DNA of 64,000 bases from Nemophila menziesii. Its lineage: Eukaryota > Streptophyta > Magnoliopsida > Boraginales > Hydrophyllaceae. The DNA lies in contig JARWIR010000018.1 of the NCBI GenBank assembly GCA_029959085.1, positions 248,001 through 312,000 on the forward strand. Reading direction: 5' to 3'. The position numbers and the translations under genes were made by a program. The number at the start of each line of letters is the position of its first letter. Within the stretch, counting starts at the first letter, position 1. This document shows, one piece after another, positions 9,440 to 42,616 of the stretch. The notes under the pieces are model-generated. The model searched no databases and had not been told where the DNA came from. It saw only the letters and a list, made by a program, of their open reading frames with translations.

Positions 9440-9444
<5 letters not shown>

Positions 9445-9496: not shown

Positions 9497-9498
<2 letters not shown>

Positions 9499-12050: not shown

Positions 12051-12975
12051 TGTGAAGCCATAAATAATAAAACAGTAATTACTGAAGGTAAAAATAAAGA
12101 TAAATAAAAGAGGTTAATGGATATTTACTCAGGATGTGGAGGTATGAGTACTGGTCTAGTACTTGGAGCTAACCGTGGTGGAGTTAAATTAATCAGGAAA
12201 TGGGCTATAGATTTAAACCCACAAGCATGCAAGAGTTTGAAACTAAACCATCCAGAAACACATGTTAGAAATAAATCAGCTGAAGATTTACTTGCGTTAC
12301 TGAAAGAATTGGAGAAGCTTTCGGAGTTGTTTAATCTAATTGGTGAAAAGGTGACTGAGGAGGAGGAAGCAAGATAAGAGGCAGGAGATAGTGAAGTATT
12401 TTTTTTGGGTGTTTTACAGATGAAGAAGCTCGAAAGAGATGGCCTCAACGGTACGAAAAGAAAAAGGGAAATAGTGACATCATTCAAGAAAAGAAGCACT
12501 ACTCTCAAGGCTTAGTGGACACAGAGACTTTCAATCTCCATGATAATGCTTTCGTGAAGGTAGGAAAAGGAAAAGACAAAGATTACTACATTTGTAATGT
12601 AGTGGAAATGTTCGAATCAGTAGATGACTATCTTTTCTGCACGGCTCAGTGGTACTACCGAGCAAAAGATACAGTCATTGATAAATGTGAAAATCACATA
12701 CATGAGAAATGTGTGTTTCTCTCTGAGGTAAAAGATGACAATCCATTGGATTGTCTCATCAAGAAGTTAAACATCGTTCATATACCTAATAACGTTGATT
12801 CAGAAAAGAAAGCTCAATTAATATCGGAATGTGACTTTTACTATGACAAGCTTTATTTACTACCGTACATTACATTTATGAATGTTCTACCCAATAACTT
12901 ATCCGAGAGTAATTAAACAAAACCAACTGTTTCATCTGAATGTGAAGCCATAAATATTAAAACAGAAATTACTCA
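12051..12975 (+). pseudogene. Chromomethylase (CMT3-type) fragments, forward arm of U1: motif I region then BAH domain
   Basis: Two pieces of a plant chromomethylase lie in permuted order. First comes the inter-domain linker (CEAINNKT) and methyltransferase motif [20 protein letters not shown] (from 12117), continuing through [20 protein letters not shown] and [15 protein letters not shown] to a stop at about 12377. Then, after a TTTTACAG acceptor-like site, the BAH region starts with EEARKRWPQRY and continues through DYYICNVVEMFES, TAQWYYRA and SEVKDDNPLDCL to YYDKLYLLPYITF (frame open from about 12417 to 12916). In real CMTs BAH comes before motif I, so the order is circularly permuted. The linker has an in-frame TAA before MDIYSG. 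The chromodomain, PCQ and ENV motifs and the target-recognition part are missing, so no methyltransferase activity is possible. The BAH part is the left arm of the hairpin. Confidence 0.85.
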
Positions 12976-13490
12976 TTTTCACCTTGAGTAATTTCTGTTT
13001 TATTAATTATGGCTTCACATTCAGATGAAACAGTTGATTTTGTTTAATTACTTTCGGATAAGTTATTAGGTAGAACATTCATAAATGTAATGTAGGGTAG
13101 TAAATAAAGCTTGTCATAGTAAAAGTCACATTCCGATATTAATTGAGCTTTCTTTTTTGAATCAATGTTATTAGGTATATGAATGATGTTTAGCTTCTTG
13201 ATGAGACAATCCAATGGATTATCATCTTTTACCTCTGAGAGAAACACACATTTCTCATGTATGTGATCTTCACATTTATCAATGACTGTATATTTTGCTC
13301 GGTAGTACCACTGAGCCGTGCAGAAAATATAGTCATCATAGTCATCTACTGATTCGAACATTTCTACTACATTACAATTGTAGTAATCTTCGTCTTTTCC
13401 TGCCTTCACAAAAGCATTATTAACTCCACCATGGTTAGCTCCAAGTACTATACCAGTTTTCATACCTCCACATCCTGAGTAAATATTCAT
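12117..13490. repeat. Long CMT inverted repeat (hairpin), U1
   Basis: The left arm 12542-12975 pairs with the right arm 12985-13418 (434 bp each). A 9-base loop (TTTTCACCT) is flanked by GAAATTACTCA and TGAGTAATTTC. A second, outer stem of about 72 bp pairs the motif I segments 12117-12188 and 13419-13490, leaving 12189-12541 as a one-sided bulge. By eye the arms differ at only a small fraction of positions. A transcript in either direction would fold into a long, near-perfect dsRNA. Plant inverted repeats of this type are established DCL-dependent siRNA sources; expression here is not shown by sequence. Confidence 0.88.
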
Positions 13491-13499
13491 TAACGTCAT
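12985..13499 (-). pseudogene. Chromomethylase fragment, inverted arm of U1 (motif I fused to BAH)
   Basis: On the minus strand a single 151-codon frame begins [13 protein letters not shown], runs through VLGANHGGVN and then directly into NAFVKAGKDEDYY and the BAH body to LLPYITFMNVLPNNL. Motif I is thus fused in frame to the middle of the BAH domain, an arrangement not found in real chromomethylases. BAH domains bind H3K9me2 in CMT3, but this piece lacks the N-terminal strands of the domain and any catalytic Cys. The variant KAGKDEDYY differs from KVGKGKDKDYY in the forward arm and equals the forward copy in U6, so the two arms derive from different CMT copies. Confidence 0.82.
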
Positions 13500-16400
13500 C
13501 TATTTATTTGATTTATAATATTTTAAATTAAAAAGTATTCTCTTTTACCACTATTTGCATATCTAATTGAGTTGTATTCTCTATTTCTTTTCAAAAGAAA
13601 ATTAAATTCTACTAATAGTACACATATGATAGTTTTTCTATGTTAAGCTTTCTCTGTATGAAAGTTTAGAATAAATGAAAACAGTAGATAATGGTTACGA
13701 ATTTAAAAAATTCATATGATAAACTAAACATCCTATAGAGTCGAAAATTAATAAATCATTTTTTTTACATTATTCTTACATATTTTAAACTCTAAATTTT
13801 ATTTATATTTATGTCAAATTGTAAATTTAATAAATTAATAAATGTATAAAAACATATTTTTAGTCTAAAGCTTACCTTGTAAAAGAAATGTCAAAACCAA
13901 TGACCACTTGTGAAATCACTTTCCTGTACAAAATGCTAATAAATTAAGATCACAATTTCATTAAAATATTATGTTTTAAGATCTAAATTGTTCCAAATAA
14001 TGTATTTTCTGAAAATTAATATATAACAAATAAAAAAGATTGCATTGTAGTTAATAAAAGGTGTGCAAATTATACACAAAAATATTAGGTAATACCAAAC
14101 AAATACAATTAATACAAATCAATTACCTGAAATTGATATTATAGGCTTTAAATCTTAGATTTGGGCTTAGAAAAAAACATAAATAATATAATTTTCTAAA
14201 AGAAATATAAATCTAGATCTACAAATGAGATGAAAAAATCAATTTTTTTTTTTAATTTCACCTCTAGTAATCTAAATATTTCTTCAAACTTTTTGTAGGT
14301 TTAATCACAAAATTGTTGAATGAAAAAAAATTATTCAATTTTTGGAGATTGTAAGAAATGAATAGACGAGGTGTATGATTATATTACGGCTTGAGATAAA
14401 TGAAAGCGTGATGAAATGAAAAACTAGGTCATAGAATTTTCTCTAAATATTATAATATTCTGTTATTTTATGGGCTGGGCCTATTAGTTTAAATATATAT
14501 ATAAAAATTAGACCATTTTCATTGGGCCATATACGTATGTATAAATTGTGGTTTTTTATTTATTCAAATATAATTTAAAATTTAAAATAGTCTCGTGTTT
14601 TAATTATTTATGTGTATTCAAGGTGCAGGCATGTGTGTATATTATATAAAATCCATAATATTTTGCAAGTTGAATAAAAATATTTAATTTAACGATATAA
14701 TTATTTTAGTAATTGTTAGCGAAGTAAGTTGATATAAATGTCTTAGTAAAACTAGGAAAAAATTAGTTCCTTTAGAATTTACCTATCCATATATAAGTTA
14801 TTTTCCGTGTGGTTGGAGCCTCAAACACATACTATAGTACCTTGATATAATTTTATAATCCAATAGAACAATGACCAATATCACGTATATATGTATGATG
14901 AAAAACTAATCTTTTGAAGGTTTAATATACTATTATTATAAAAATGTTATGATAATATGAGTACATGGAGACAATTCCTACATAATTAATTTTAATTAAT
15001 ATTTATTAATCTAATCTTTATATTGGTAAAATTATCTATCCTTATTATGATTTGCCTAAAAAATATAATATTTATCTTTTGATACTTTAATCATTGATTA
15101 TATTGAAAAATAAATAAATAAACTCCTTATTTGTTGAGATATCGGTTTTTATGAGAAATAATAAAGTGTTTGGGAAATGTATGACATGTTACGCATAGAT
15201 TCACTGGAAATAAGTGTATGAAAAATAAATAAATTTAACTTATTTAAAAATATAAGTATGTATATGAAGATAAGGAGATATTGACAGGATGAGAACAAAT
15301 GGTTATACTGTTGACTCGGACGATGAATTTATTAAGCAAGAAAAGAAAAAATGAAAATGACACTTTTTCAGTTTATATTATCCTAGTTTTACATAAGGTT
15401 AGGGTTATTAAGAATGAATAGAATGAGCTAGAGAAGGTTATTAAAAGGATTATAACAAAATAAAGATCTCTTAGTTTATAACTGATATGGAGAAATGACC
15501 AAATTGTTTAGAATAGTTTCCAAAATTGAAAGAGAAAATATCATACAAGTATAGAATATATAATTATTTAAATAAAATTTACATTCAACAATAGCCCCAT
15601 AATCAATGTTGAAACTAATATCTTTTCTTGGCCATCTATTACATTACACGTAACTAGTAGCCAAATATAATTTATATTTGATAAATTCATTAAAATTTGT
15701 TGAAAGACAACTTGATTAAATGTTATCTATGTTGGAGAACAACAAATATAGTATATGTGTATAGTTGGGGAAATAACAATAATATTGTGATACAATAGGT
15801 TTCTAAATCGTGCAACTAGATAATTCATTTACAACGTACGACTAAGAAAAATGTTATGTCCTTGTGGGTTTATCTTAGTGTTAGTTCATCATAATGTCAA
15901 GGATGTACATCACATATATACATTGGTGTACATGTAAGGATTGATTATAGTCACATGGACAAACTATGGTAATCTACCAAAAATTAATTAAGATCTTTCT
16001 GTAATAACTAGGAGATAATATAGACGGATAAAAAAATAACCTTAATATATCCTTTTGTTGAGTTTACTTTTTAAATTGTAACATTAAGATTATAAATACA
16101 GTTAATACATTGAAAAGTATATAAAAGGACATTTAAAGGAAAGATAGACACATATATGTACATACAAAGTTTATTATACAACATTTATTTACTCAAATAT
16201 TGAAAAATATTTAGTTGATGTGTGGAAAAATATAAAAATGACTTCATAACAATAAATTACCCAAATTCGGCAAAACTGGCTAATCACAATAATGTTAAAT
16301 AAGTGAAATATTGTGCTTGATATATAACCATTGAAAACAACTTTAGATTCACATATTGCCTATTTTTAAAACCCATAAATCTTAACCAACAATTCTTTAT

Positions 16401-16769
16401 TAAACCATTAAACCACAAAACCCTATATTTATAACCATTTAAAACACATTTAGAGTCACATATTAACCATTATCGTTTAATATATATAAAAATAACATAA
16501 ATAATATATAACTACTACTAATTTCTAACATAATCAACCATTTAATTCATTTTTTAGGCTCAAAAAGACTAACTCTTGTTAGTGTTAGTATATGTATACT
16601 TTTTGTGTTACATAGTTTTTGCATCATTATATTAAATTTATCAAGGTATAATTTTAATGTATATCTAGATTTGTATTAATAAATTTAGAAGTAGGAATAT
16701 TAATTTACAGTTAATTAATATTTATAAATGGACCAAAGGCCATTACGATTTTACTTCTTGTAGCTTACA

Positions 16770-16774
<5 letters not shown>

Positions 16775-16814
<40 letters not shown>
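16775..16814. repeat. (AT)n microsatellite, U2 copy (about 40 bp)
   Basis: Homologous to the tract at 9445-9496 but about 12 bases shorter. Confidence 0.9.
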
Positions 16815-16815
<1 letters not shown>

Positions 16816-17707
16816 CGATGATTTTTTTTAACAACTCATACACATAATATATAATACATACAATAAAATAACATTTGATACTATATCAAAACCAATCCAA
16901 CACACTTTTATATATTATTTTTATATAATTTATGTTTTTTAAACGCTAAAAGTTAAAAATAAAACTGTTCTATCTGATTAAGCTCCTCCTACATTTAATA
17001 TAGTTTTTCTCTCTATTTATTTTCAAAATAAAATCGAATTGTACTAATAGTATATAACTTATAATATTTTATGTTATTTTTTCTTCACCCATATTTTGAA
17101 TAAATAATATTAGTAATTAATGACTACAAAAGTAGAAAAAAACCCACATCATATACTCCCGTCATATCGTTTGGGTAATCAACAAATCATATACTTTAGT
17201 ATATTCAGTTCATAGTTAAGATGGATAATTATTAACACATTACATGAAGTATTTCCAAAAATGTTATACCTCCCAAATTCTAAACAATACCAATTGACCT
17301 CCCACGTTTAGTATACCCCGTCAGGTAATGAAAATCCAACAATACTACATGGATCCTACAGTTGTACACGCAATACAAATGCACAATAAGCCAAAAAAAA
17401 TGGACAAGCACAAAACCACGGTCGATGAAAATAAATACAATATTGGATCCAACAATACATTCAATTTGGATCCTACTTCTTTAATTTCATTTATGTCTGA
17501 CAACAATAAAAATTGAAACCTAACATAATATATTTAAACATAAGGCTGATTTTGAATTATCTACCATTACATTTATGGTGTATATGAAATTGATTGAATG
17601 AGTGAGAATTATTGAAAAAGAACAAAAATATTTATTTAGCGTAGTTGTTGAAGAACTATTGTATCTAACCAAAATTAGTAACCTTGACATGTCAGTGTTA
17701 TAAACAA

Positions 17708-17788
17708 GTAAATTTGGAGTCTTGAGGTCTCGATGCACTATAATGGGTTGCATGTGCGCTCGTACTTCATACCCTCTTGCAAATCGAG
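17708..17788 (-). pseudogene. Raf-like kinase catalytic-loop fragment, U2 segment A
   Basis: The minus strand reads [16 protein letters not shown] small deletion replaces CNPV upstream (the + strand reads CTATAATGGGTTG where U1 has CTATAACAGGGTTG). Confidence 0.68.
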
Positions 17789-18854
17789 CGCAAATATATC
17801 ATCAATACTATTTTTTTGTCAAAATATATAATCAATACTATAAAATCAAACAAAAAATAGGAATAAGTTAAAAAGAAAAGGACCAAAGCATAGTAATTTA
17901 AACAGTGTAGGTTTAATTAAGTATCTTCCCACTTTTACAAACTGTATCAATCAAATAAACAAAAGGTATATTAAAATCTAGATTGGTCAATAATAAAAAA
18001 AATCAAGTAAATAAGTTCAATTACTAGAATAACTAAGAAAGATAAATCATGATAAAATTTTCTGAATATCATTATCAAACACCGTCAAATGGACAGTATC
18101 CCGTGAAGGATTGTTTCTTCCTTTTAAACATCTATGGTTGTTAAAATAGTAATCCACTATGCAACAAATTAAACAAAAATGAAATATTCCATACAATATG
18201 TTGTATCAGTGGCTTCTGTAGCAGATTTTTGAGGCATAAGTGATGGCTCATTGTTAGACAAGTATTTCTAAAGGTAATTTAGACCTTTATACATTTAATT
18301 CTTATTAGTGACCAACACACTGTTCTGTATAATTTTTATTCTCCTCTTTCTACTACACCAAGTTGAAAAGACATGGATACATATGTATGTTTTATCATAT
18401 TTTAAATTAAAAAGTATTCACTTTTACCACTACTCGTACATCTAATTGAGTTGTATTCTCTATTTCTTTTCAAAAAAATTAAATTCTACTAATAGTATAC
18501 ATATTACAGTTTTTCTATGTTACTCTTTCTCTGTATGAAAGTTTAGAATAAATAAAATATTAGATAATGGTTACAAATTTTTAAAATTCATATGATAATC
18601 TAAACCTCCTATGGAGTCCGAAATCAATAAATGATATTTTTAACATTATTCTTACATATTTTAAATTCTAAATATAATTTATATTTATGTCAGATTATGA
18701 ATTTAATAAATTACTAAAAGTATAAAAATATATTTTTAGTCTAAAACTAACCTTGTAGAAAAATGTCATGACCAACGACCCACTTGTAAAATCATATTCC
18801 TCTACAAAATACTAATAAATTAAGAGCACAATTTCATCAAAATATTATGTTTTA

Positions 18855-18953
18855 TAAATGAGTAGATTTGAAGTCTTGAGGTCTCGATGCACTATAACAG
18901 GGTTGCATGTGTGTAGGTACTTCATACCCTTTGCCGCATCGAGAGCAGTTATT
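18855..18953 (-). pseudogene. Raf-like kinase catalytic-loop fragment, U2 segment B
   Basis: Same content as the U1 segment B copy ([13 protein letters not shown], then [13 protein letters not shown]). Confidence 0.72.
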
Positions 18954-19364
18954 GTCCTTCTTTTTTATATGGTTATTTTCACCTGGCTTGCATATCGAGC
19001 ATACGTATATCATCAATACTATTTTCTGTCAAAATATATCATCAATACTATAAAATCAAACAAAACATAAAACCAAAAAATAGGAATAAGTTAAAAAGAA
19101 AAGGATCAAAGCGTAGTAATTTAAGCAGAGTAGGTTTACATGAGTATCATCCCACTTTTATAATTTGTATCAATCAAATAAACAAAAGATATAGTAAAAT
19201 ATAGATTGGTCAATAATAAAAAAAATAATCAAGTAAATAAGTTCAATTACTAGACCATTATACATTTAATTCCTATTAGTGACCAACACACTCTTCTGTA
19301 TAATTTTTATTCTCCTCTTTCTACTACACCAAGTCGAAAAGACATGGATACATATGTATGTTTT

Positions 19365-20287
19365 TGTGAAGCCATAAATAATAAAACAGTAATTACTGAA
19401 GGTAAAAATGAAGATAAATAAAAGAGGTTAATGGATATTTACTCACGATGTGGAGGTATGAGTACTGGTCTAGTACTTGGAGCTAACCGTGGTGGAGTTA
19501 AATTAATCAGGAAATGGGCTATAGATTTAAACCCACAAGCATGCAAGAGTTTGAAACTAAACCATCCAGAAACACATGTTAGAAATAAATCAGCTGAAGA
19601 TTTACTTGCGTTACTGAAAGAATTGGAGAAGCTTTCGGAGTTGTTTAATCTAATTGGTGAAAAGGTGACTGAGGAGGAGGAAGCAAGATAAGAGGCAGGA
19701 GATAGTGAAGTATTTTTTTTGGGTGTATTACAGATGAAGAAGCTCGAAAGAGATGGCCTCAACGGTACGAAAAGAAAAAGGGAAATAGTGACATCATTCA
19801 AGCAAAGAAGCACTACTCTCAAGGCTTAGTGGACACAGAGACTTTCAATCTCCATGATAATGCTTTCGTGAAGGTAGGAAAAGGAAAAGACAAAGATTAC
19901 TACATTTGTAATGTAGTGGAAATGTTCGAATCAGTAGATGACTGTCTTTTCTGCACGGCTCAGTGGTACTACCGAGCAAAAGATACAGTCATTGATAAAT
20001 GTGAAAATCACATACATGAGAAATGTGTGTTTCTCTCTGAGGTAAAAGATGACAATCCATTGGATTGTCTCATCAAGAAGTTAAACATCGTTCATATACC
20101 TAATAACGTTGATTCAGAAAAGAAAGCTCAATTAATATCGGAATGTGACTTTTACTATGACAAGCTTTATTTACTACCGTACATTACATTTATGAATGTT
20201 CTACCCAATAACTTATCCGAGAGTAATTAAACAAAACCAACTGTTTTATCTGAATGTGAAGCCATAAATATTAAAACAGAAATTACT
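19365..20287 (+). pseudogene. Chromomethylase fragments, forward arm of U2
   Basis: Same permuted layout as U1. In motif I the conserved SGCGG reads SRCGG (a glycine of the cofactor loop changed to Arg at about 19446). The linker stop before MDIYS is present. In the BAH part DDY is DDC. The BAH frame is open to 20230. Confidence 0.83.
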
Positions 20288-20804
20288 CATTTTCACCTTC
20301 AGTAATTTCTGTTTTATTAATTATGGCTTCACATTCAGATGAAACAGTTGATTTTGTTTAATTACTTTCGGATAAGTTATTAGGTAGAACATTCATAAAT
20401 GTAATGTAGGGTAGTAAATAAAGCTTGTCATAGTAAAAGTCACATTCCGATATTAATTGAGCTTTCTTTTTTGAATCAATGTTATTAGGTATATGAATGA
20501 TGTTTAGCTTCTTGATGAGACAATCCAATGGATTATCATCTTTTACCTCTGAGAGAAACACACATTTCTCATGTATGTGATCTTCACATTTATCAATGAC
20601 TGTATATTTTGCTCGGTAGTACCACTGAGCCGTGCAGAAAAGATAGTCATCATAGTCATCTACTGATTCGAACATTTCTACTACATTACAATTGTAGTAA
20701 TCTTCGTCTTTTCCTGCCTTCACAAAAGCATTATTAACTCCACCATGGTTAGCTCCAAGTACTATACCAGTTTTCATACCTCCACATCCTGAGTAAATAT
20801 TCAT
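19431..20804. repeat. Long CMT inverted repeat (hairpin), U2
   Basis: Arms 19856-20287 and 20301-20732 with a loop of about 13 bases; outer motif I stem 19431-19502 with 20733-20804. The loop is slightly larger than in U1 because CTTCAG replaces CTTGAG at the inner edge. Confidence 0.87.
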
Positions 20805-20813
20805 TAACGTCAT
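20301..20813 (-). pseudogene. Chromomethylase fragment, inverted arm of U2
   Basis: Same 151-codon motif I-BAH fusion as in U1, open from MTLMNIYSG. It differs from U1 by single residues (DDYDDYL versus DDYDDYI). Confidence 0.8.
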
Positions 20814-23800
20814 CTATTTATTTGATTTATAATATTTTAAATTAAAAAGTATTCTCTTTTACCACTATTTGCATATCTAATTGAGTTGTATTCTCTATTT
20901 CTTTTCAAAAGAAAATTAAATTCTACTAATAGTACACATATGATAGTTTTTCTATGTTAAGCTTTCTCTGTATGAAAGTTTAGAATAAATGAAAACAGTA
21001 GATAATGGTTACGAATTTAAAAAATTCATATGATAAACTAAACTTCCTATAGAGTCGAAAATTAATAAATCATTTTTTTTACATTATTCTTACATATTTT
21101 AAACTCTAAATTTTATTTATATTTATGTCAAATTGTAAATTTAATAAATTAATAAATGTATAAAAACATATTTTTAGTCTAAAGCTTACCTTGTAGAAGA
21201 AATGTCAAAACCAATGACCACTTGTGAAATCACTTTCCTGTACAAAATGCTAATAAATTAAGATCACAATTTCATTAAAATATTATGTTTTAAGATCTAA
21301 ATTGTTCCAAATAATGTATTTTCTGAAAATTAATATATAACAAATAAAAAAGATTGCATTGTAGTTAATAAAAGGTGTGCAAATTATACACAAAAATATT
21401 AGGTAATACCAAACAAATACAATTAATACAAATCAATTACCTGAAATTGATATTATAGGCTTTAAATCTTAGATTTGGGCTTAGAAAAAAACATAAATAA
21501 TATAATTTTCTAAAAGAAATATAAATCTAGATCTACAAATGAGATGAAAAAATCAATTTTTTTTTAATTTCACCTCTAGTAATCTAAATATTTCTTCAAA
21601 CTTTTTGTAGGTTTAATCACAAAATTGTTGAATGAAAAAAAATTATTCAATTTTTGGAGATTGTAAGAAATGAATAGACGAGGTGTATGATTATATTACG
21701 GCTTGAGATAAATGAAAGCGTGATGAAATGAAAAACTAGGTCATAGAATTTTCTCTAAATATTATAATATTCTGTTATTTTATGGGCTGGGCCTATTAGT
21801 TTAAATATATATATAAAAATTAGACCATTTTCATTGGGCCATATACGTATGTATAAATTGTGGTTTTTTATTTATTCAAATATAATTTAAAATTTAAAAT
21901 AGTCTCGTGTTTTAATTATTTATGTGTATTCAAGGTGCAGGCATGTGTGTATATTATATAAAATCCATAATATTTTGCAAGTTGAATAAAAATATTTAAT
22001 TTAACGATATAATTATTTTAGTAATTGTTAGCGAAGTAAGTTGATATAAATGTCTTAGTAAAACTAGGAAAAAATTAGTTCCTTTAGAATTTAGCTATCC
22101 ATATATAAGTTATTTTCCGTGTGGTTGGAGCCTCAAACACATACTATAGTACCTTGATATAATTTTATAATCCAATAGAACAATGACCAATATCACGTAT
22201 ATATGTATGATGAAAAACTAATCTTTTGAAGGTTTAATATACTATTATTATAAAAATGTTATGATAATATGAGTACATGGAGACAATTCCTACATAATTA
22301 ATTTTAATTAATATTTATTAATCTAATCTTTATATTGGTAAAATTATCTATCCTTATTATGATTTGCCTAAAAAATATCATATTTATCTTTTGATACTTT
22401 AATCATTGATTATATTGAAAAATAAATAAATAAACTCCTTATTTGTTGAGATATCGGTTTTTATGAGAAATAATAAAGTGTTTGGGAAATGTATGACATG
22501 TTACGCATAGATTCATTGGAAAGAAGTGTATGAAAAATAAATAAATTTAACTTATTTAAAAATATAAGTATGTATATGAAGATAAGGAGATATTGACAGG
22601 ATGAGAACAAATGGTTATACTGTTGACTCGGACGATGAATTTATTAAGCAAGAAAAGAAAAAATGAAAATGACACTTTTTCAGTTTATATTATCCTAGTT
22701 TTACATAAGGTTAGGGTTATTAAGAATGAATAGAATGAGCTAGAGAAGGTTATTAAAATGATTATAACAAAATAAAGATCTCTTAGTTTATAACTGATAT
22801 GGAGAAATGACCAAATTGTTTAGAATAGTTTCCAAAATTGAAAGAGAAAATATCATACAAGTATAGAATATATAATTATTTAAATAAAATTTACATTCAA
22901 CAATAGCCCCATAATCAATGTTGAAACTAATATCTTTTCTTGGCCATCTATTACATTACACGTAACTAGTAGCCAAATATAATTTATATTTGATAAATTC
23001 ATTAAAATTTGTTGAAAGACAACTTGATTAAATGTTATCTATGTTGGAGAACAACAAATATAGTATATGTGTATAGTTGGGGAAATAACAATAATATTGT
23101 GATACAATAGGTTTCTAAATCGTGCAACTAGATAATTCATTTACAACGTACGACTAAGAAAACTGTTATGTCCTTGTGGGTTTATCTTAGTGTTAGTTCA
23201 TCATAATGTCAAGGAAGTACATCACATATATACATTGGTGTACATGTAAGGATTGATTATAGTCACATGGACAAACTATGGTAATCTACCAAAAATTAAT
23301 TAAGATCTTTCTGTAATAACTAGGAGATAATATAGACGGATAAAAAAATAACCTTAATATATCCTTTTGTTGAGTTTACTTTTTAAATTGTAACATTAAG
23401 ATTATAAATACAGTTAATACATTGAAAAGTATATAAAAGGACATTTAAAGGAAAGATAGACACATATATGTACATACAAAGTTTATTATACAACATTTAT
23501 TTACTCAAATATTGAAAAATATTTAGTTGATGTGTGGAAAAATATAAAAATGACTTCATAACAATAAATTACCCAAATTCGGCAAAACTGGCTAATCACA
23601 ATAATGTTAAATAAGTGAAATATTGTGCTTGATATATAACCATTGAAAACAACTTTAGATTCACATATTGCCTATTTTTAAAACCCATAAATCTTAACCA
23701 ACAATTCTTTATTAAACCATTAAACCACAAAACCCTATATTTATAACCATTTAAAACACATTTAGAGTCACATATTAACAATTATCGTTTAATATATATA

Positions 23801-24086
23801 AAAATAACATAAATAATATATAACTACTACTAATTTCTAACATAATCAACCATTTAATTCATTTTTTAGGCTCAAAAAGACTAACTCTTGTTAGTGTTAG
23901 TATATGTATACTTTTTGTGTTACATAGTTTTTGCATCATTATATTAAATTTATCAAGGTATAATTTTAATGTATATCTAGATTTGTATTAATAAATTTAG
24001 AAGTAGAAATATTAATTTACAGTTAATTAATATTTATAAATGGACCAAAGGCCATTACGATTTTACTTCTTGTAGCTTACAAATAT

Positions 24087-24104
24087 TATATATATATATA
24101 TATA
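24087..24104. repeat. (AT)n microsatellite, U3 copy (about 18 bp)
   Basis: Homologous AT tract, contracted relative to U1 and U2. Confidence 0.88.
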
Positions 24105-24998
24105 ACGATGATTTTTTTTAACAACTCATACACATAATATATAATACATACAATAAAATAACATTTGATACTATATCAAAACCAATCCAACACACTTTTA
24201 TATATTATTTTTATATAATTTATGTTTTTTAAACGCTAAAAGTTAAAAATAAAACTGTTCTATCTGATTAAGCTCCTCCTACATTTAATATAGTTTTTCT
24301 CTCTATTTATTTTCAAAATAAAATCGAATTGTACTAATAGTATATAACTTATAATATTTTATGTTATTTTTTCTTCACCCATATTTTGAATAAATAATAT
24401 TAGTAATTAATGACTACAAAAGTAGAAAAAAACCCACATCATATACTCCCGTCATATCGTTTGGGTCATCAACAAATCATATACTTTAGTATATTCAGTT
24501 CATAGTTAAGATGGATAATTACTAACACATTACATGAAGTATTTCCAAAAATGTTATACCTCCCAAATTCTAAACAATACACATTGACCTCCCACGTTTA
24601 GTATACCCCGTCAGGTAATGAAAATCCAACAATACTACATGGATCCTACAGTTGTACACGCAATACAAATGCACAATAAGCCAAAAAAAAATGGACAAGC
24701 ACAAAACCACGGTCGATGAAAATAAATACAATATTGGATCCAACAATACATTCAATTTGGATCCTACTTCTTTAATTTCATTTATGTCTGACAACAATAA
24801 AAATTGAAACCTAACATAATATATTTAAACATAAGGCTGATTTTGAATTATCTACCATTACATTTATGGTGTATATAAAATTGATTGAATGAGTGAGAAT
24901 TATTGAAAAAGAACAAAAATATTTATTTAGCGTAGTTGTTGAAGAACTATTGTATCTAACCAAAATTAGTAACCTTGACATGTCAGTGTTATAAACAA

Positions 24999-25078
24999 GT
25001 AAATTTGGAGTCTTGAGGTCTCGATGCACTATAACAGGGTTGCATGTGCGCTGGTACTTCATACCCTCTTGCAAATCG
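24999..25078 (-). pseudogene. Raf-like kinase catalytic-loop fragment, U3 segment A
   Basis: The minus strand reads EGMKYQRTCNP, then [13 protein letters not shown], the same decay as in U1 segment A. Confidence 0.7.
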
Positions 25079-31100: not shown

Positions 31101-31377
31101 TAAATAATATATAACTACTACTAATTTCTAACATAATCAACCATTTAATTCATTTTTTAGGCTCAAAAAGACTAACTCTTGTTAGTGTTAGTATATGTAT
31201 ACTTTTTGTGTTACATAGTTTTTGCATCATTATATTAAATTTATCAAGGTATAATTTTAATGTATATCTAGATTTGTATTAATAAATTTAGAAGTAGAAA
31301 TATTAATTTACAGTTAATTAATATTTATAAATGGACCAAAGGCCATTACGATTTTACTTCTTGTAGCTTACAAATAT

Positions 31378-31393
31378 TATATATATATATATA
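31378..31393. repeat. (AT)n microsatellite, U4 copy (about 16 bp)
   Basis: Homologous AT tract; differs from U3 by one repeat despite near-identity of the units. Confidence 0.88.
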
Positions 31394-32287
31394 ACGATGA
31401 TTTTTTTTAACAACTCATACACATAATATATAATACATACAATAAAATAACATTTGATACTATATCAAAACCAATCCAACACACTTTTATATATTATTTT
31501 TATATAATTTATGTTTTTTAAACGCTAAAAGTTAAAAATAAAACTGTTCTATCTGATTAAGCTCCTCCTACATTTAATATAGTTTTTCTCTCTATTTATT
31601 TTCAAAATAAAATCGAATTGTACTAATAGTATATAACTTATAATATTTTATGTTATTTTTTCTTCACCCATATTTTGAATAAATAATATTAGTAATTAAT
31701 GACTACAAAAGTAGAAAAAAACCCACATCATATACTCCCGTCATATCGTTTGGGTCATCAACAAATCATATACTTTAGTATATTCAGTTCATAGTTAAGA
31801 TGGATAATTACTAACACATTACATGAAGTATTTCCAAAAATGTTATACCTCCCAAATTCTAAACAATACACATTGACCTCCCACGTTTAGTATACCCCGT
31901 CAGGTAATGAAAATCCAACAATACTACATGGATCCTACAGTTGTACACGCAATACAAATGCACAATAAGCCAAAAAAAAATGGACAAGCACAAAACCACG
32001 GTCGATGAAAATAAATACAATATTGGATCCAACAATACATTCAATTTGGATCCTACTTCTTTAATTTCATTTATGTCTGACAACAATAAAAATTGAAACC
32101 TAACATAATATATTTAAACATAAGGCTGATTTTGAATTATCTACCATTACATTTATGGTGTATATAAAATTGATTGAATGAGTGAGAATTATTGAAAAAG
32201 AACAAAAATATTTATTTAGCGTAGTTGTTGAAGAACTATTGTATCTAACCAAAATTAGTAACCTTGACATGTCAATGTTATAAACAA

Positions 32288-32367
32288 GTAAATTTGGAGT
32301 CTTGAGGTCTCGATGCACTATAACAGGGTTGCATGTGCGCTGGTACTTCATACCCTCTTGCAAATCG
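32288..32367 (-). pseudogene. Raf-like kinase catalytic-loop fragment, U4 segment A
   Basis: Same as U3 segment A (EGMKYQRTCNP, then [13 protein letters not shown]). Confidence 0.7.
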
Positions 32368-33435
32368 AGCGCAAATATATCATCAATACTATTTTTTTGT
32401 CAAAATATATAATCAATACTATAAAATCAAACAAAAAATAGGAATAAGTTAAAAAGAAAAGGACCAAAGCATAGTAATTTAAACAGTGTAGGTTTAATTA
32501 AGTATCTTCCCACTTTTACAAACTGTATCAATCAAATAAACAAAAGGTATATTAAAATCTAGATTGGTCAATAATAAAAAAAATCAAGTAAATAAGTTCA
32601 ATTACTAGAATAACTAAGAAAGATAAATCATGATAAAATTTTCTGAATATCATTATCAAACACCATCAAATGGACAGTATCCCGTGAAGGATTGTTTCTT
32701 CCTTTTAAACATCTATGGTTGTTAAAATAGTAATCCACTATGCAACAAATTAAACAAAAATGAAATATTCCATACAATATGTTGTATCAGTGGCTTCTGT
32801 AGCAGATTTTTGAGGCATAAGTGATGGCTCATTGTTAGACAAGTATTTCTAAAGGTAATTTAGACCTTTATACATTTAATTCTTATTAGTGACCAACACA
32901 CTGTTCTGTATAATTTTTATTCTCCTCTTTCTACTACACCAAGTTGAAAAGACATGGATACATATGTATGTTTTATCATATTTTAAATTAAAAAGTATTC
33001 ACTTTTACCACTACTCGTACATCTAATTGAGTTGTATTCTCTATTTCTTTTCAAAAAAATTAAATTCTACTAATAGTATACATATTACAGTTTTTCTATG
33101 TTACTCTTTCTCTGTATGAAAGTTTAGAATAAATAAAATATTAGATAATGGTTACAAATTTTTAAAATTCATATGATAATCTAAACCTCCTATGGAGTCC
33201 GAAATCAATAAATGATATTTTTAACATTATTCTTACATATTTTAAATTCTAAATATAATTTATATTTATGTCAGATTATAAATTTAATAAATTACTAAAA
33301 GTATAAAAATATATTTTTAGTCTAAAACTAACCTTGTAGAAAAATGTCATGACCAACGACCCACTTGTAAAATCATATTCCTCTACAAAATACTAATAAA
33401 TTAAGAGCACAATTTCATCAAAATATTATGTTTTA

Positions 33436-33534
33436 TAAATGAGTAGATTTGAAGTCTTGAGGTCTCGATGCACTATAACAGGGTTGCATGTGTGTAGGTA
33501 CTTCATACCCTTTGCCGCATCGAGAGCAGTTATT
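33436..33534 (-). pseudogene. Raf-like kinase catalytic-loop fragment, U4 segment B
   Basis: Same as U3 segment B. Confidence 0.72.
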
Positions 33535-33945
33535 GTTCTTCTTTTTTATATGGTTATTTTCACCGGGCTTGCACATCGAGCATACGTATATCAACAATAC
33601 TATTTTTTGTCAAAATATATCATCAATACTATAAAATCAAACAAAACATAAAACCAAAAAATAGGAATAAGTTAAAATGAAAAGGATCAAAGCGTAGTAA
33701 TTTAAGCAGAGTAGGTTTACTTGAGTATCATCCCACTTTTATAATTTGTATCAATCAAATAAACAAAAGATATAGTAAAATATAGATTGGTCAATAATAA
33801 AAAAAATAATCAAGTAAATAAGTTCAATTACTAGACCATTATACATTTAATTCCTATTAGTGACCAACACACTCTTCTGTATAATTTTTATTCTCCTCTT
33901 TCTACTACACCAAGTCGAAAAGACATGGATACATATGTATGTTTT

Positions 33946-34869
33946 TGTGAAGCCATAAATAATAAAACAGTAATTATTGAAGGTAAAAATGAAGATAAAG
34001 AAAAGAGGTTAATGGATATTTACTAAGGATGTGGAGGTATGAGTACTGGTCTAGTACTTGGAGCTAACCGTGGTGGAGTTAAATTAATCAGGAAATGGGC
34101 TATAGATTTAAACCCACACGCATGCAAGAGTTTGAAACTAAACCATCCAGAAACACAGGTTAGAAATAAATCAGCTGAAGATTTACTTGCGTTACTGAAA
34201 GAATTGGAGAAGCTTTCGGAGTTGTTTAATCTAGTTAGTGAAAAGGTGACTGAGGAGGAGGAAGAAAAATAAGAGGCAGGAGATAGTGAAGTATTTTTTT
34301 TTGGGTGTTTTACAGATGAAGAAGCTCGAAAGAGATGGCCTCAACGGTACGAAAAGAAAAAGGGAAATAGTGACATCATTCAAGCAAAGAAGCACTACTC
34401 TCAAGGCTTAGTGGACACAGAGACTTTCAATCTCCATGATAATGCTTTCGTGAAGGTAGGAAAAGGAAAAGACAAAGATTACTACATTTGTAATGTAGTT
34501 GAAATGTTCGAATCAGTAGATGACTATCTTTTCTGCACGGCTCAGTGGTACTACCGAGCAAAAGATACAGTCATTGATAAATTTGAAAATCACATACATG
34601 AGAAATGTGTGTTTCTCTCTGAGGTAAAAGATGACAATCCATTGGATTGTCTCATCAAGAAGTTAAACATCGTTCATATACCTAATAACGTTGATTCAGA
34701 AAAGAAAGCTCAATTAATATCGGAATGTGACTTTTACTATGACAAGCTTTATTTACTACCGTACATTACATTTATGAATGTTCTACCCAATAACTTATCC
34801 GAGAGTAATTAAACAAAATCAACTGTTTCATCTGAATGTGAAGCCATAACTATTAAAACAGAAATTACT
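33946..34869 (+). pseudogene. Chromomethylase fragments, forward arm of U4
   Basis: Carries the same TAA in motif I as U3 (about 34021) and the same KFENH change. The linker reads NKTVIIEGKNEDKEKRL and is open. The BAH frame is open to 34812. Confidence 0.83.
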
Positions 34870-35386
34870 CATTTTCACCTTCAGTAATTTCTGTTTTATT
34901 AATTATGGCTTCACATTCAGATGAAACGGTTGATTTTGTTTAATTACTTTCGGATAAGTTATTGGGTAGAACATTCATAAATGTAATGTAGGGTAGTAAA
35001 TAAAGCTTGTCATAGTAAAAGTCACATTCCGATATTAATTGAGCTTTCTTTTTTGAATCAACGTTATTAGGTATATGAATGATGTTTAGCTTCTTGATGA
35101 GACAATCCAATGGATTATCATCTTTTACCTCTGAGAGAAACACACATTTCTCATGTATGTGATCTTCACATTTATCAATGACTGTATCTTTTGCTCGGTA
35201 GTACCACTGAGCCGTGCAGAAAAGATAGTCATCATAGTCATCTACTGATTCGAACATTTCTACTACATTACAATTGTAGTAATCTTCGTCTTTTCCTGCC
35301 TTCACAAAAGCATTATTAACTACACCATGGTTAGCTCCAAGTACTATACCAGTTTTCATACCTCCACATCCTGAGTAAATATTCAT
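34012..35386. repeat. Long CMT inverted repeat (hairpin), U4
   Basis: Arms 34438-34869 and 34883-35314 with a 13-base loop; outer motif I stem 34012-34083 with 35315-35386. Confidence 0.87.
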
Positions 35387-35395
35387 TAACGTCAT
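34883..35395 (-). pseudogene. Chromomethylase fragment, inverted arm of U4
   Basis: 151-codon motif I-BAH fusion, same residues as U3 as far as I can see. Confidence 0.8.
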
Positions 35396-38300
35396 CTATT
35401 TATTTGATTTATAATATTTTAAATTAAAAAGTATTCTCTTTTACCACTATTTGCATATCTAATTGAGTTGTATTCTCTATTTCTTTTCAAAAGAAAATTA
35501 AATTCTACTAATAGTACACATATGATAGTTTTTCTATGTTAAGCTTTCTCTGTATGAAAGTTTAGAATAAATGAAAACAGTAGATAATGGTTACGAATTT
35601 AAAAAATTCATATGATAAACTAAACTTCATATAGAGTCGAAAATTAATAAACTATTTTTTTTACATTATTCTTACATATTTTAAAATCTAAATTTTATTT
35701 ATATTTATGTCAAATTGTAAATTTAATAAATTAATAAATGTATAAAAATATATTTTTAGTCTACAACTTACCTTGTAGAAGAAATGTCAAAACCAATGAC
35801 CACTTGTGAAATCACTTTCCTGTACAAAATGCTAATAAATTAAGATCACAATTTCATTAAAATATTATGTTTTAAGATCTAAATTGTTCCAAATAATGTA
35901 TTTTCTGAAAATTAATATATAACAAATAAAAAAGATTGCATTGTAGTTAATAAAAGGTGTGCAAATTATACATAAAATATTAGGTAATACCAAACAAATA
36001 CAATTAATACAAATCAATTACCTTAAATTGATATTATAGGCTTTAAATCTTAGATTTGGGCTTAGAAAAAAACATAAATAATATAATTTTCTAAAAGAAA
36101 TATAAATCTAGATCTACAAATGAGATGAAAAAATCAATTTTTTTTAATTTCACCTCTAGTAATCTAAATATTTCTTCAAACTTTTTGTAGGTTTAATCAC
36201 AAAATTGTTGAATGAAAAAAAATTATTCAATTTTTGGAGATTGTAAGAAATGTATAGACGAGGTGTATGATTATATTACGGCTTGAGATAAATGAAAGCG
36301 TGATGAAATGGAAAATTAGGTCATAGAATTTTCTCTAAATATTATAATATTCTGTTATTTTATGGGCTGGGCCTATTAGTTTATATATATATATAAAAAT
36401 TAGACCATTTTCATTGGGCCATATACGTATGTATAAATTGTGGTTTTTTATTTATTCAAATATAATTTAAAATTTAAAATAGTCTCGTGTTTTAATTATT
36501 TATGTGTATTCAAGGTGCAGGCATGTGTGTATATTATATAAAATCCATAATATTTTGCAAGTTGAATAAAAATATTTAATTTAACGATATAATTATTTTA
36601 GTATTTATTAGCGAAGTAAGTTGATATAAATGTCTTAGTAAAACTAGGAAAAAATTAGTTCCTTTAGAATTTAGCTATCCATATATAAGTTATTTTCCGT
36701 GTGGTTGGAGCCTCAAACACATACTATAGTACCTTGATATAATTTTATAATCCAATAGAACAATGACCAATATCACGTATATATGTATGATGAAAAACTA
36801 ATCTTTTGAAGGTTTAATATACTATTATTATAAAAATATTATGATAATATGAGTACATGGAGACAATTCCTACATAATTAATTTTAATTAATATTTATTA
36901 ATCTAATCTTTATATTGGTAAAATTATCTATCCTTATTATTATTTGCCTAAAAAATATAATAATTATCTTTTGATACTTTAATCATTGATTATATTGAAA
37001 AATAAATAAATAAACTCCTTATTTGTTGAGATATCGGTTTTTATGAGAAATAATAAAGTCTTTGGGAAATGTATGACATGTTACGCATAGATTCATTGGA
37101 AAGAAGTGTACGAAAAATAAATAAATTTAACTTATTTAAAAATATAAGTATGTATATGAAGATAAGGAGATATTGACAGGATGAGAACAAATGGTTATAC
37201 TGTTGACTCGGACGATGAATTTATTAAGCAAGAAAAGAAAAAAAGAAAATGACACTTTTTCAGTTTATATTATCCTAGTTTTACATAAGGTTAGGGTTAT
37301 TAAGAATGAATAGAATGAGCTAGAGAAGGTTATTAAAATGATTATAACAAAATAAAGATCTCTTAGTTTATAACTGATATGGAGAAATGACCAAATTGTT
37401 TAGAATAGTTTCCAAAATTGAAAGAGAAAATATCATACAAGTATAGAATATATAATTATTTAAATAAAATTTACATTCAACAATAGCCCCATAATCAATG
37501 TTGAAACTAATATCTTTTCTTGGCAATCTATTACATTACACGTAACTAGTAGCCAAATATAATTTATATTTGATAAATTCATTAAAATTTGTTGAAAGAC
37601 AACTTGATTAAATGTTATCTATGTTGGAGAACAACAAATATAGTATATGTGTATAGTTGGGGAAATAACAATAATATTGTGATACAATAGGTTTCTAAAT
37701 CGTGCAACTAGATAATTCATTTACAACGTACGACTAAGAAAAATGTTATGTCCTTGTGGGTTTATCTTAGTGTTAGTTCATCATAATGTCAAGGAAGTAC
37801 ATCACATATATACATTGGTGTACATGTAAGGATTGATTATAGTCACATGGGCAAACTATGGTAATCTACCAAAAATTAATTAAGATCTTTCTGTAATAAC
37901 TAGGAGATAATATAGACGGATAAAAAAATAACCTCAATATGTCCTTTTGTTGAGTTTACTTTTTAAATTGTAACATTAAGATTATAAATACAGTTAATAC
38001 ATTGAAAAGTATATAAAAGGACATTTAAAGGAAAGATAGACACATATATGTACATACAAAGTTTATTATACAACATTTATTTACTCAAATATTGAAAAAT
38101 ATTTAGTTGATGTATGGAAAAATATAAAAATGACTTCATAACAATAAATTACCCAAATTCGGCAAAACTGGCTAATCACAATAATGTTAAATAAGTGAAA
38201 TATTGTGCTTGATATATAACCATTGAAAACAACTTTAGATTCACATATTGCCTATTTTTAAAACCCATAAATCTTAACCAATAATTTTTTATTAAACCAT

Positions 38301-38668
38301 TAAACCACAAAACCCTATACTATATAACCATTTAAAACACATTTAGATTCACATATTAACCATTATCGTTTAATATATATATAAAAATAACATAAATAAT
38401 ATATAACTACTACTAATTTCTAACATAATCAACCATTTAATTCATTTTTAGGCTAAAAAAGACTAACTCTTGTTAGTGTTAGTATATGTATACTTTTTGT
38501 GTTACATAGTTTTTGCATCATTATATTAAATTTATCAAGGTATAATTTTAATGTATATCTAGATTTGTATTAATAAATTTAGAAGTAGGAATATTAATTT
38601 ACAGTTAATTAATATTTATAAATGGACCAAAGGCCATTACGATTTTACTTCTTGTAGCTTACAAATAT

Positions 38669-38682
38669 TATATATATATATA
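38669..38682. repeat. (AT)n microsatellite, U5 copy (about 14 bp)
   Basis: Shortest of the homologous tracts. Confidence 0.85.
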
Positions 38683-39577
38683 CAAGGATGATTTTTTTTA
38701 ACAACTCATACACATAATATATAATACATACAATAAAATAACATTTGATACTATATCAAAACCGATCCAACACACTTTTATATATTATTTTTATATAATT
38801 TATGTTTTTTAAACGCTAAAAGTTAAAAATAAAACTGTTCTCTCTGATTAAGCTCCTCCTACATTTAATAGAGTTTTTCTCTCTATTTATTTTCAAAATA
38901 AAATCGAATTGTACTAATAGTATATAACTTATAATATTTTATGTTATTTTTTCTTCACCTATATTTTGAATAAATAATATTAGTAAGTAATGACTACAAA
39001 AGTAGAAAAAAACCCACATCATATACTCCCGTCATATCGTTTGGGTCATCAACAAATCATATACTTTAGTATATTCATTTCATAGTTAAGATGGATAATT
39101 ACTAACACATTACATGAAGTATTTCCAAAAATGTTATACCTCCCACATTTAAACAATACCAATTGACCTCCCACGTTTAGTATACCCCGTCAGGTAATGG
39201 AAATCCAACAATACTACATGGATCGTAGAGTTGTACACGCAATACAAATGCACAATAAGCCAAAAAAAAATGGACAGCACAAAACCACGGTCGATGAAAA
39301 TAAATACAATATTGGATCCAACAATACATTCAATTTGGATCCTCCTTCTTCAATTTCATTTATGGCTGACAACAATAAAATTGAAACCTAACATAATATA
39401 TTTAAACATAAGGCTGATTTTGAATTATCTACCATTACATTTATGGGGTATATGAAATTGATGGAATGAGTGAGAATTATTGAAAAAGAACAAAAATATT
39501 TATTTAGCGTAGTTGTTGAAGAACTATTGTATCTAACCAAAATTAGTAACCTTGACATGTCAGTGTTTATAAACAAG

Positions 39578-39657
39578 TAATTTTGGAGTCTTGAGGTCTC
39601 GATGCACTATAACAGGGTTGCATGTGCGCTGGTACTTCATACCCTCTTGCAAATCGA
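39578..39657 (-). pseudogene. Raf-like kinase catalytic-loop fragment, U5 segment A
   Basis: The minus strand again encodes the HRDLK catalytic loop (VIVHRDLKT). Frame changes are visible just downstream (TGTTTATAAAC versus TGTTATAAAC on the + strand). Confidence 0.65.
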
Positions 39658-40713
39658 GCGCAAATATATCATCAACACTATTTTTTTGTCAAAATATATA
39701 ATCAATACTATAAAATCAAACAAAAAATAAACCAAAAAATAGGAATAAGTTAAAAAGAAAAGGACCAAAGCATAGTAATTTAAACAGTGTAGGTTTAATT
39801 ATGTATCTTCCCACTTTTACAAACTGTATCAATCAAATAAACAAAAGGTATATTAAAATCTAGATTGGTCAATAATAAAAAAAAATCAAGTAAATAAGTT
39901 CAATTACTAGACTAACTAAGAGAGATAAATCATGATAAAATTTTCTGAATATCATTATCAAACACCATCAAATGGACATGATCCCGTGAAGGATTGTTTC
40001 TTCCATTTAAACATCTATGGTTGTTAAAATAGTAATCCACTATGCAACAAATTAAACAAAAATGAAATGTTCCATACAATATGTTGTATCAGTGGATTCT
40101 GTAGCAGATTTTTGAGGCATAAGTGATGGCTCATTGTTAGACAAGTATTTCTAAAGGTAATTTAAACCTTTATACATTTAATTCTTATTAGTGACCAACA
40201 CACTGTTCTGTATAATTATTATTCTCCTCTTTCTACTACACCAAGTTGAAAAGACATGGATACATATGTATTTTTTATCATATTTTAAATTAAAAAGTAT
40301 TCACTTTTACCACTACTCTACATCTAATTGAGTTGTATTCTCTATTTCTTTTCAAAAAAATTAAATTCTACTAATAGTATACTCTTTCTCTGTATGAAAG
40401 TTTAGAATAAATAAAATATTAGATAATGGTTACAAATTTTTAAAATTCATATGATAATCTAAACCTCCTATGGAGTCCGAAATCAATAAATGATATTTTT
40501 AACATTATTCTTACATATTTTAAACTCTAAATATAATTTATATTTATGTCAAATTATAAATTTAATAAATTAATAAAAGTATAAAAATATATTTTTAGTC
40601 TAAAACTAACCTTGTAGAAAAATGTCATGACCAACAACCCACTTGTAAAATCATATTCCTCTACAAAATACTAATAAATTAAGATCACAATTTCATCAAA
40701 ATATTATGTTTTA

Positions 40714-40812
40714 TAAATGAGTAGATTTGAAGTCTTGAGGTCTCGATGCACTATAACAGGGTTCCATGTGTGTAGGTACTTCATACCCTTTGCCGCATCG
40801 AGAGCGGTTATT
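40714..40812 (-). pseudogene. Raf-like kinase catalytic-loop fragment, U5 segment B
   Basis: The minus strand reads [16 protein letters not shown], then [14 protein letters not shown] Cys is changed to Trp relative to the other copies. Confidence 0.7.
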
Positions 40813-41222
40813 GTTCTTCTTTTTTATATTATTATTTTTACCGGGCTTGCACATCGAGCATACGTATATCATCAATACTATTTTTTGTCAAAATATATCA
40901 TCAAAACTATAAAATCAAACAAAACATAAAACCAAAAAATAGGAATAAGTTAAAAAGAAAAGGATCAAAGCGTAGTAATTTAAGCAGAGTAGGTTTACTT
41001 GAGTATCATCCCACTTTTATAATTTGTATCAATCAAATAAACAAAAGATATAGTAAAATATAGATTGGTCAATAATAAAAAAATAATCAAGTAAATAAGT
41101 TCAATTACTAGTCCATTATACATTTAATTCCTATTAGTGACCAACACACTTTTTTGTATAATTTTTATTCTCCTCTTTCTACTACACCAAGTCGAAAAGA
41201 CATGGATACATATGTATATTTT

Positions 41223-42113
41223 TGTGAAGCCATAAATAATAAAACAGTAATTACTGAAGGTAAAAATGAAAATAAAGAAAAGAGGTTAATGGATATTTAC
41301 TTGGAGGTATGAGTACTGATCTAGTACTTGGAGCTAACCGTGGTGGAGTTAAATTAATCACGAAATGGGCTATAGATTTAAACCCACACGCATGCAAGAG
41401 TTTGAAACTAAACCATCCAGAAACACAGGTTAGAAATAAATCAGCTGAAGATTTACTTGCGTTACTGAAAGAATTGGAGAAGCTTTCGGAGTTGTTTAAT
41501 CTAATTGGTGAAAAGGTGACTGAGGAGGAGGAAGAAAAATAAGAGGCAGGAGATAGTGAAGTATTTTGTTTGGGTGTTTTACAGATGAAGAAGCTCGAAA
41601 GAGATGGCCTCAACGGTACGAAAAGAAAAAGGGAAATAGTGACATCATTCAAGCAAAGAAGCACTACTCTCAAGGCTTAGTGGACACAGAGACTTTCAAT
41701 CTCCATGATAATTCTTTCGTGAAGGTAGGAAAAGGAAAAGACAAATATTACTACATTTGTAATGTAGTGTAAATGTTCGAATCAGTAGATGACTATCTTT
41801 TCTGCACGGCTCAGTGGTACTACCGAGCAAAAGATACAGTCATTGATAAATGTGAAAATCACATACATGAGAAATGTGTGTTTCTCTCAGAGGTAAAAGA
41901 TGACAATCCATTGGATTGTCTCATCAAGAAGTTAAACATCGTTCATATACCTAATAACGTTGATTCAGAAAAGAAAGCTCAATTAATATCAGAATGTTAC
42001 TTTTACTATGACAAGCTTTATTTACTACCCTACATTACATTTATGAATGTTCTACCCAATAACTTATCCGAGAGTAATTAAACAAAATCAACTGTTTCAT
42101 CTGAATGTGAAGC
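41223..42113 (+). pseudogene. Chromomethylase fragments, forward arm of U5
   Basis: Motif I has lost seven bases (TTTACTTGGAGG where others have TTTACTCAGGATGTGGAGG), which removes SGCG and shifts the frame. The BAH part carries an in-frame TAA in place of the first Glu of VVEMF (about 41770-41772), splitting it into two frames. Otherwise the sequence follows U1-U4. This is the most damaged forward copy, yet complementarity with the inverted arm is retained. Confidence 0.82.
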
Positions 42114-42616
42114 GTAATTTTTGTTTTAATATTTATGGCTTCACATTCAGATGAAACAGTTGATTTTGTTTAATTACTCTCGGATAAGTTATTGGGTAGA
42201 ACATTCATAAATGTAATGTAGGGTAGTAAATAAAGCTTGTCATAGTAAAAGTCACATTCCGATATTAATTGAGCTTTCTTTTCTGAATCAACGTTATTAG
42301 GTATATGAACGATGTTTAGCTTCTTGATGAGACAATCCAATTGATTATCATCTTTTACCTCTGAGAGAAGCACACATTTCTCATGTATGTGATCTTCACA
42401 TTTATCAATGACTGTATCTTTTGCTCGGTAGTACCACTGAGCCGTGCTTAAAAGATAGTCATCATAGTCATCTACTGATTCGAACATTTCTACTACATTA
42501 CAATTGTAGTAATCTTCGTCTTTTCCTACCTTCACAAAAGCATTATTAACTCCACCATGGTTAGCTCCAAGTACTAGACCAGTTTTCATACCTCCACATC
42601 CTGAGTAAATATTCAT
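41289..42616. repeat. Long CMT inverted repeat (hairpin), U5
   Basis: Arms of about 407 bp, 41707-42113 and 42138-42544, with a 24-base loop. The loop-proximal part of the left linker is deleted. An outer stem pairs the motif I remnants near 41289-41353 with 42545-42616. At the loop-proximal end the arms match base for base over long runs, including CTCTCGGATAAG, where U1-U4 right arms have CTTTCGG. Confidence 0.86.

Follow-up and report, generated by a model that had tools for sequence, protein, structure and literature searches.

Tandem Hairpins of Chromomethylase Sequence

The window analysed here, a stretch of 64,000 nucleotides from Nemophila menziesii (contig JARWIR010000018.1, positions 248,001 to 312,000), contains a tandem repeat array in which long hairpins are built of chromomethylase (CMT) sequence. 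Self-BLAST resolved six tandem units of ~7.3 kb (U1–U6), and five of the six, U1–U5, carry the hairpin. These five tandem hairpins are real and not a product of chance. We regard them, with a rough probability of 0.58, as a by-product array of pseudogene hairpins evolving near-neutrally, with the anatomy of a plausible natural hairpin RNA (hpRNA) locus. An earlier sequence-only reading of this DNA had described five tandem long CMT hairpins, a description borne out by BLAST, repeat search and folding as well as by Pfam, PDB and protein matches.

The inner arms of the hairpins correspond to the BAH domain of CMT. In U1, they lie at 12543..12975 (+) and, inverted, at 12985..13420 (-), as determined by BLAST, Pfam, repeat search and folding, and are enclosed by an outer stem of motif I sequence at 12100..12187 (+) and 13420..13507 (-), determined by BLAST and repeat search. 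Repeat search and folding placed the left (+) and right (-) inner arms of the other hairpins at 19857..20287 and 20301..20734 (U2), 27150..27580 and 27594..28027 (U3), 34439..34869 and 34883..35316 (U4), and 41708..42113 and 42138..42546 (U5). BLAST, repeat search and folding agreed on inner arms of 406–436 nt and loops of 9–24 nt in all five hairpins (15 nt for the U5 loop in the fold), in line with the 407–434 bp and 9–24 nt given by the sequence-only reading. Gap-free cores of the arms (326–353 nt) are 95–97% complementary. Over the whole inner arms, left and right differ at 16–25 of 398–429 compared sites (4–6%), and six of these differences are fixed in all five units. The outer stem had also been recognised correctly, but not its length, which had been put at ~72 bp; it measures 88–99 bp in U1–U4, with 86–91% complementarity, and is method-dependent in U5 (51 nt at 92% or 83–90 nt at 81%). 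A one-sided bulge of 356–357 nt, present in the left arm only, separates the inner and outer stems in the fold.

Folding in silico, proposed earlier as a check, gave long stems throughout: the minimum free energies of the five hairpins range from -804 to -869 kcal/mol, with 461–501 main-stem pairs per unit. The shuffle control was run on U1 alone among the hairpins, and its energy is far below the mean of 12 mononucleotide shuffles (-308 kcal/mol, sd 11). For the single CMT piece of U6, folding is no more stable than in 20 of its own shuffles (z +0.72). The repeat search found 340 inverted repeats with arms at most 6 kb apart, and 24 of the 25 longest listed consist of CMT sequence. The long near-perfect foldback that characterises hpRNA loci was found in all five hairpin units. 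By analogy with the foldbacks described in PMC13213937 and PMC1790633, the structure appears to be of the kind that produces small interfering RNAs (siRNAs) in plants, as the sequence-only reading had held.

The arms derive from a CMT3-clade chromomethylase and comprise its BAH domain and motif I. BAH exceeded the Pfam curated cut-off in all three BAH pieces scanned. The PDB matches 9mvy, 7ubu and 4fsx (E-value 7e-31), labelled DNA (cytosine-5)-methyltransferase 1, are structures that we take to be maize chromomethylase. A protein search returned 126 matches, and among the 120 listed most are named CMT or cytosine-5 methyltransferase. No close protein relative was found in the protein searches, the best identities being 52–57% over most of the piece; motif I alone reached up to 79%, with Lithospermum. 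In a FastTree phylogeny of 56 rows (U6 and 55 proteins picked by hand from the 120 listed), U6 groups on a long branch with CMT3 of Lithospermum erythrorhizon (Boraginaceae), with support of 0.94, a placement that makes an asterid origin probable. A tblastn search of the window with four full-length CMTs (E-value up to 1e-3) recovered BAH and motif I pieces only, and no complete CMT gene with chromodomain and catalytic motifs.

The claim that protein frames are broken while the pairing persists held for one part of the hairpins. The motif I frame is broken in three of five left arms and, further on, in U6, but the BAH frame of the inner arms is open in nine of ten, the left arm of U5 alone having a stop. 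In the right arm of U1, an open reading frame (ORF) of 151 aa (13047..13499, -) fuses motif I in frame to BAH, and it is intact in 5/5 units.

Origin of the Hairpins and Order of Events

The single CMT piece of U6 (48402..49360, +) contains, in this order, motif I, BAH and the beginning of a further motif I, and has no inverted arm. In CMT proteins BAH precedes motif I, as the PDB alignments show, whereas the array piece is permuted, with motif I first. The same linker and motif I start stand at both ends of the U6 piece, which would follow if head-to-tail joining of the fragment took place before or during its capture. The piece runs past the position of the hairpin loop in the natural CMT order, and U6 thus does not represent a collapsed hairpin.

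BAH, linker and motif I align with Forsythia CMT3 with a longest insertion of 2 aa, exon counts being available from other species only. Since the piece is uninterrupted where CMT genes usually have introns, it is probably a spliced, mRNA-derived pseudogene fragment. A candidate intron remnant before BAH (TTTTACAG followed by ATGAAG) was dropped, as other CMT3s align to this stretch as coding sequence. U6 and all ten arms have in common a stop behind the BAH stretch, which indicates that the piece was probably already a pseudogene before the hairpin arose.

The occurrence of single-copy U6 beside hairpin units, together with E-to-E junctions without CMT (e.g., at 6216, 11074 and 50711; E is the basic repeat of the array), suggests that an empty repeat was followed by a single-copy, then a hairpin and finally an amplified state. 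The arms differ from U6 at 21–26 of 409–429 sites, a divergence close to that between left and right arms, which points to a similar age of palindrome formation and the split from U6. Divergence of E among U2–U5 is only 0.4–1.5%, and the amplification would therefore be younger than both.

We infer the following course of events, including the mRNA origin, the copying mechanism, the near-neutral change and the dicing. A CMT3-type mRNA fragment (BAH to motif I, spliced and joined in permuted order) would have been inserted, as a pseudogene, into a tandem repeat of ~4.9 kb that is rich in AT. Within a single unit, the fragment would have turned into an imperfect palindrome, one arm of which also lost 356 nt, and the hairpin unit would then have multiplied in head-to-tail orientation along with the remainder of the array, for which unequal crossing-over is the simplest mechanism. 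Polymerase read-through of each unit would yield long double-stranded RNA, and cutting by Dicer-like enzymes would turn it into a heterogeneous set of siRNAs, with the array itself, in cis, as the main expected target. Action in trans is less likely, given that the arms appear to have diverged from any functional CMT3.

Such a course resembles the early life of young MIRNA and siRNA foldbacks. PMC1790633 states that large new foldbacks give rise to mixed populations of siRNA-like RNAs when a functional promoter lies nearby; the shared traits are a large near-perfect foldback from coding sequence and an early stage with heterogeneous siRNAs. The array differs in its five tandem copies and in its source, a permuted and apparently spliced pseudogene fragment.

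The Repeat Array and Its Surroundings

The window is AT-rich (27% GC). According to self-BLAST, the whole array occupies 2981..55873 (no strand assigned) and is composed of a truncated E0, the hairpin units U1–U5, U6 with its single CMT piece and then interrupted E copies. The units start at 6216 (U1), 13509 (U2), 20823 (U3), 28116 (U4), 35405 (U5) and 42635 (U6), and the sixth, with its one unpaired CMT piece, extends over 42635–49319. Within U1, the order is E (6216..11073; 4.86 kb, AT-rich, 24% GC), its derivative e (11074..12050) and the 1.46-kb CMT block (12051–13508). The element e, directly 5' of the U1 CMT hairpin, is a 977-bp deletion derivative that retains only the two ends of E; neither E nor e is assigned a strand. 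The E copies flanking U1–U6 are truncated or interrupted.

A six-frame Pfam scan of the E copy of U1 at E-values up to 0.1 found no family. None of the three Helitron-like candidate ends in the window lies inside E; other terminal types were not specifically searched. A Helitron, tRNA or Rfam origin of E was rejected, as there is no internal Helitron-like end, no tRNA and no Rfam family at gathering score. One Helitron-like 3' end (GC-rich hairpin, 10 nt, CTAG, T) is present at 2935–2963, ~18 bp before the upstream edge of the array. A fragment of E at 10208–10504 (-), and again at about 50000–50100 (-), resembles the catalytic loop of a CTR1/Raf-like kinase (PDB match to CTR1 with an E-value of 5e-5; Pkinase with an E-value of 5e-4 in the downstream copy, below the curated cut-off). 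Given this kinase-like fragment besides CMT, E appears to have acquired pieces of at least two host genes.

The downstream E copies contain a GC-richer insertion (50849–53257, 42% GC) with a weak Transposase_32 match (E-value 0.025). Its ORF at 50911–51312 has no Pfam match and resembles, by its motif, the end of a Ty3/gypsy integrase. Beyond the array, a direct repeat of 1.42 kb (55880–57299 and 62580–64000) is 96.7% identical; its interpretation as a pair of long terminal repeats (LTRs) was dropped, the ends not being LTR-like. A weak RNase P/MRP p29 match at about 1189–1284 (+; E-value 0.0011, below cut-off) is perhaps an exon of a POP4-type gene.

Tests for Selection and Decay

Arm-specific conservation, co-change between arms and an excess of synonymous changes were sought as signs of selection on pairing or protein. 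Among the ten pairs of U1–U5, the arms are more diverged than E in five and less diverged in five. In pairs without U1, the arms are more diverged in five of six, and four of the five arm-lower pairs include U1. The E copy of U1 differs from those of the other units by 4.3–4.7%, apparently as its initial 1.5 kb was derived from a different copy.

In the BAH stretch, 11 of 40 reconstructed changes are synonymous, compared with 22.6% (~9) expected at kappa 2 (p 0.28), where changes within the array were counted as distinct states per column and not as events. By branch, the synonymous/non-synonymous counts are 1/10 for the U6 stem, 4/6 for left arms, 2/10 for right arms, 1/1 for the left stem and 3/2 for the right stem. 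The ratio of non-synonymous to synonymous divergence (Ka/Ks) between arms and U6 is 0.54–0.93. Variable columns number 12 among left arms and 13 among right arms, and none of 398 varies in both. The 46 changes in the hairpins include more C:G to A:T transversions (14) than C:G to T:A transitions (10), an apparently atypical pattern for plant repeats.

The protein of the array ancestor, assembled manually from the copies, was compared with 55 CMT proteins. Of the 52 positions that at least 95% of these proteins conserve, it differs at 9, and the most divergent of the 55 at 5; the set of positions was defined by the same 55 proteins, which favours them, gaps were counted as losses and no leave-one-out was applied. 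The first conservation tests had omitted 17 of the 55 proteins (CMT2, CMT1-like and some fast-evolving). With leave-one-out, 12 of 75 sites were lost in the ancestor and 8 of 79 in the protein that fared worst, that of Lithospermum. Nine CMT2-type or distant proteins lose 10–15 of 75 against that first set, as many as the array, so it alone shows no decay.

Several points weigh against near-neutral change of a spliced pseudogene. Over all hairpin branches, 10 of 29 changes are synonymous (p 0.10; 0.035 at kappa 1). Left and right arms, compared in three units, have Ka/Ks of 0.24 (U1), 0.22 (U3) and 0.45 (U5), and 8 of 17 changes between the U1 arms are synonymous (p 0.023 at kappa 2). This left-right synonymous excess suggests that the ancestors of the arms may have parted while still coding, or that one arm may have been under weak protein constraint. 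Furthermore, the co-change test has low power, as 0.4 both-arm columns are expected by chance, and it detects frequent conversion or compensation only. Finally, the probable mRNA origin is judged by exon counts from other plants. Taken together, the comparisons reveal no clear sign that pairing or protein has been selected, and the left-right synonymous excess alone stands out. The young age of the copies is enough to explain the pairing of the arms.

C/T Transitions and Probable Methylation

In four pairs of U1–U5, C/T transitions per site exceed those at CHH 1.1–2.5-fold at CG and 1.2–2.7-fold at CHG, on small counts. In comparisons against the outlying E0 and E8, the ratios are 3.4 and 2.7 for CG and 1.4 and 2.4 for CHG. 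The observed/expected ratio of CWG is 0.52–0.67 in three E stretches, 0.85 in E7, 1.16–1.20 in the CMT piece and 1.04 in the upstream flank. These values suggest that the array has probably been methylated, and they do not indicate that it is exempt from CHG methylation. The CMT piece may have joined the array late, but coding composition is another possible reason for its CWG level. The direct-repeat copies at the end of the window have none of 12 C/T transitions at CG or CHG, an uninformative comparison. Loss of methylation as a sign of an active weapon was considered and rejected, the CG and CHG excess over CHH still being there.

Alternative Explanations

The hairpins might be an active natural siRNA locus, transcribed and diced, that lowers host CMT3 in trans as an unselected by-product. 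We consider this unlikely. The stems are long and near-perfect, and both arms of each unit share perfect runs of 61–115 nt and 90–179 21-mers (of 489–517 right-arm windows). There is also a precedent in the VIM4-VIM2 inverted repeat of Arabidopsis Cvi, whose siRNAs lower VIM1 expression, as PMC13213937 reports. Both loci have inverted copies of a gene of the DNA-methylation pathway, a possible long double-stranded RNA stem and an origin by structural variation. In Cvi-0, however, the locus comprises two genes that give read-through transcripts and are 100% identical across the first exon and intron, and both siRNAs and effects in trans were demonstrated, whereas the array holds pseudogene pieces in a tandem repeat, with the arm divergence given above. 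The array ancestor had already drifted at the conserved CMT positions, and the divergence of the arms from their source CMT, ~10% by a rough estimate that was not computed and assumes relaxed constraint, would leave few perfect 21-mers. That the summed siRNAs of the five hairpins lower CMT3 enough to loosen the silencing of the array and of other repeats is very improbable in our judgement. CMT3 of Arabidopsis is a target of miR823, a single miRNA tuning it in embryos according to PMC8352596; the likeness to the array lies in the target family.

Still less probable is that the right arm encodes a small BAH protein, the 151-aa product described above, competing with CMT3 for its chromatin mark. 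The intact ORF in every hairpin unit, a BAH score just over the Pfam cut-off (31.3 vs 30.8 bits) and the left-right Ka/Ks of 0.22–0.45 would fit such a protein. Changes in the right arms are nevertheless predominantly non-synonymous, and the ORF sits in an inverted repeat, so that its transcript would self-fold. A protein search with the 151-aa ORF gave nothing, a weak result, since it missed even the CMT relatives matched by the left-arm ORF.

The sequence-only reading had raised the possibility of a captured weapon, taken here as a hairpin kept by selection because lower CHG methylation aids the spread of the repeat family. This proposal was not supported by the comparisons, and we hold it to be highly implausible. 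Its conceptual precedent is miR820, carried by rice CACTA elements and directed at OsDRM2 (PMC3459959), with which the array shares a foldback that matches a gene for a DNA methyltransferase and sits within a multicopy repeat; moreover, in the window it is the hairpin units that multiplied (five vs one single-copy unit). However, miR820 is a defined miRNA with a confirmed target effect that co-evolved with its target, whereas the array has a long hairpin, no known transposon genes and no co-change seen between arms. Conservation of the arms does not consistently exceed that of the flanking repeat, neither compensation nor conversion between them was seen (at the low power noted), the methylation-type C/T excess persists, the E copy of U1 has no Pfam family and so no known transposition gene, and five tandem copies are explainable without selection.

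Palindromes are a known class of artefact, but an assembly or sequencing artefact from fold-back chimeric reads has a negligible probability here, as it should copy one strand exactly, while the arms differ at 4–6% of sites with six differences fixed in five units and carry a 356-nt one-arm deletion and unit-specific changes.

Conclusions

Among the listed open-licence literature, judged by titles and the starts of abstracts, there are no earlier reports of CMT hairpins or CMT hairpin arrays. Inverted repeats of methylation genes can alter the methylome, as in the case of VIM4-VIM2. An array of by-product pseudogene hairpins in which the empty, single-copy and hairpin stages stand side by side would be a good place to see the birth and copying of such loci.

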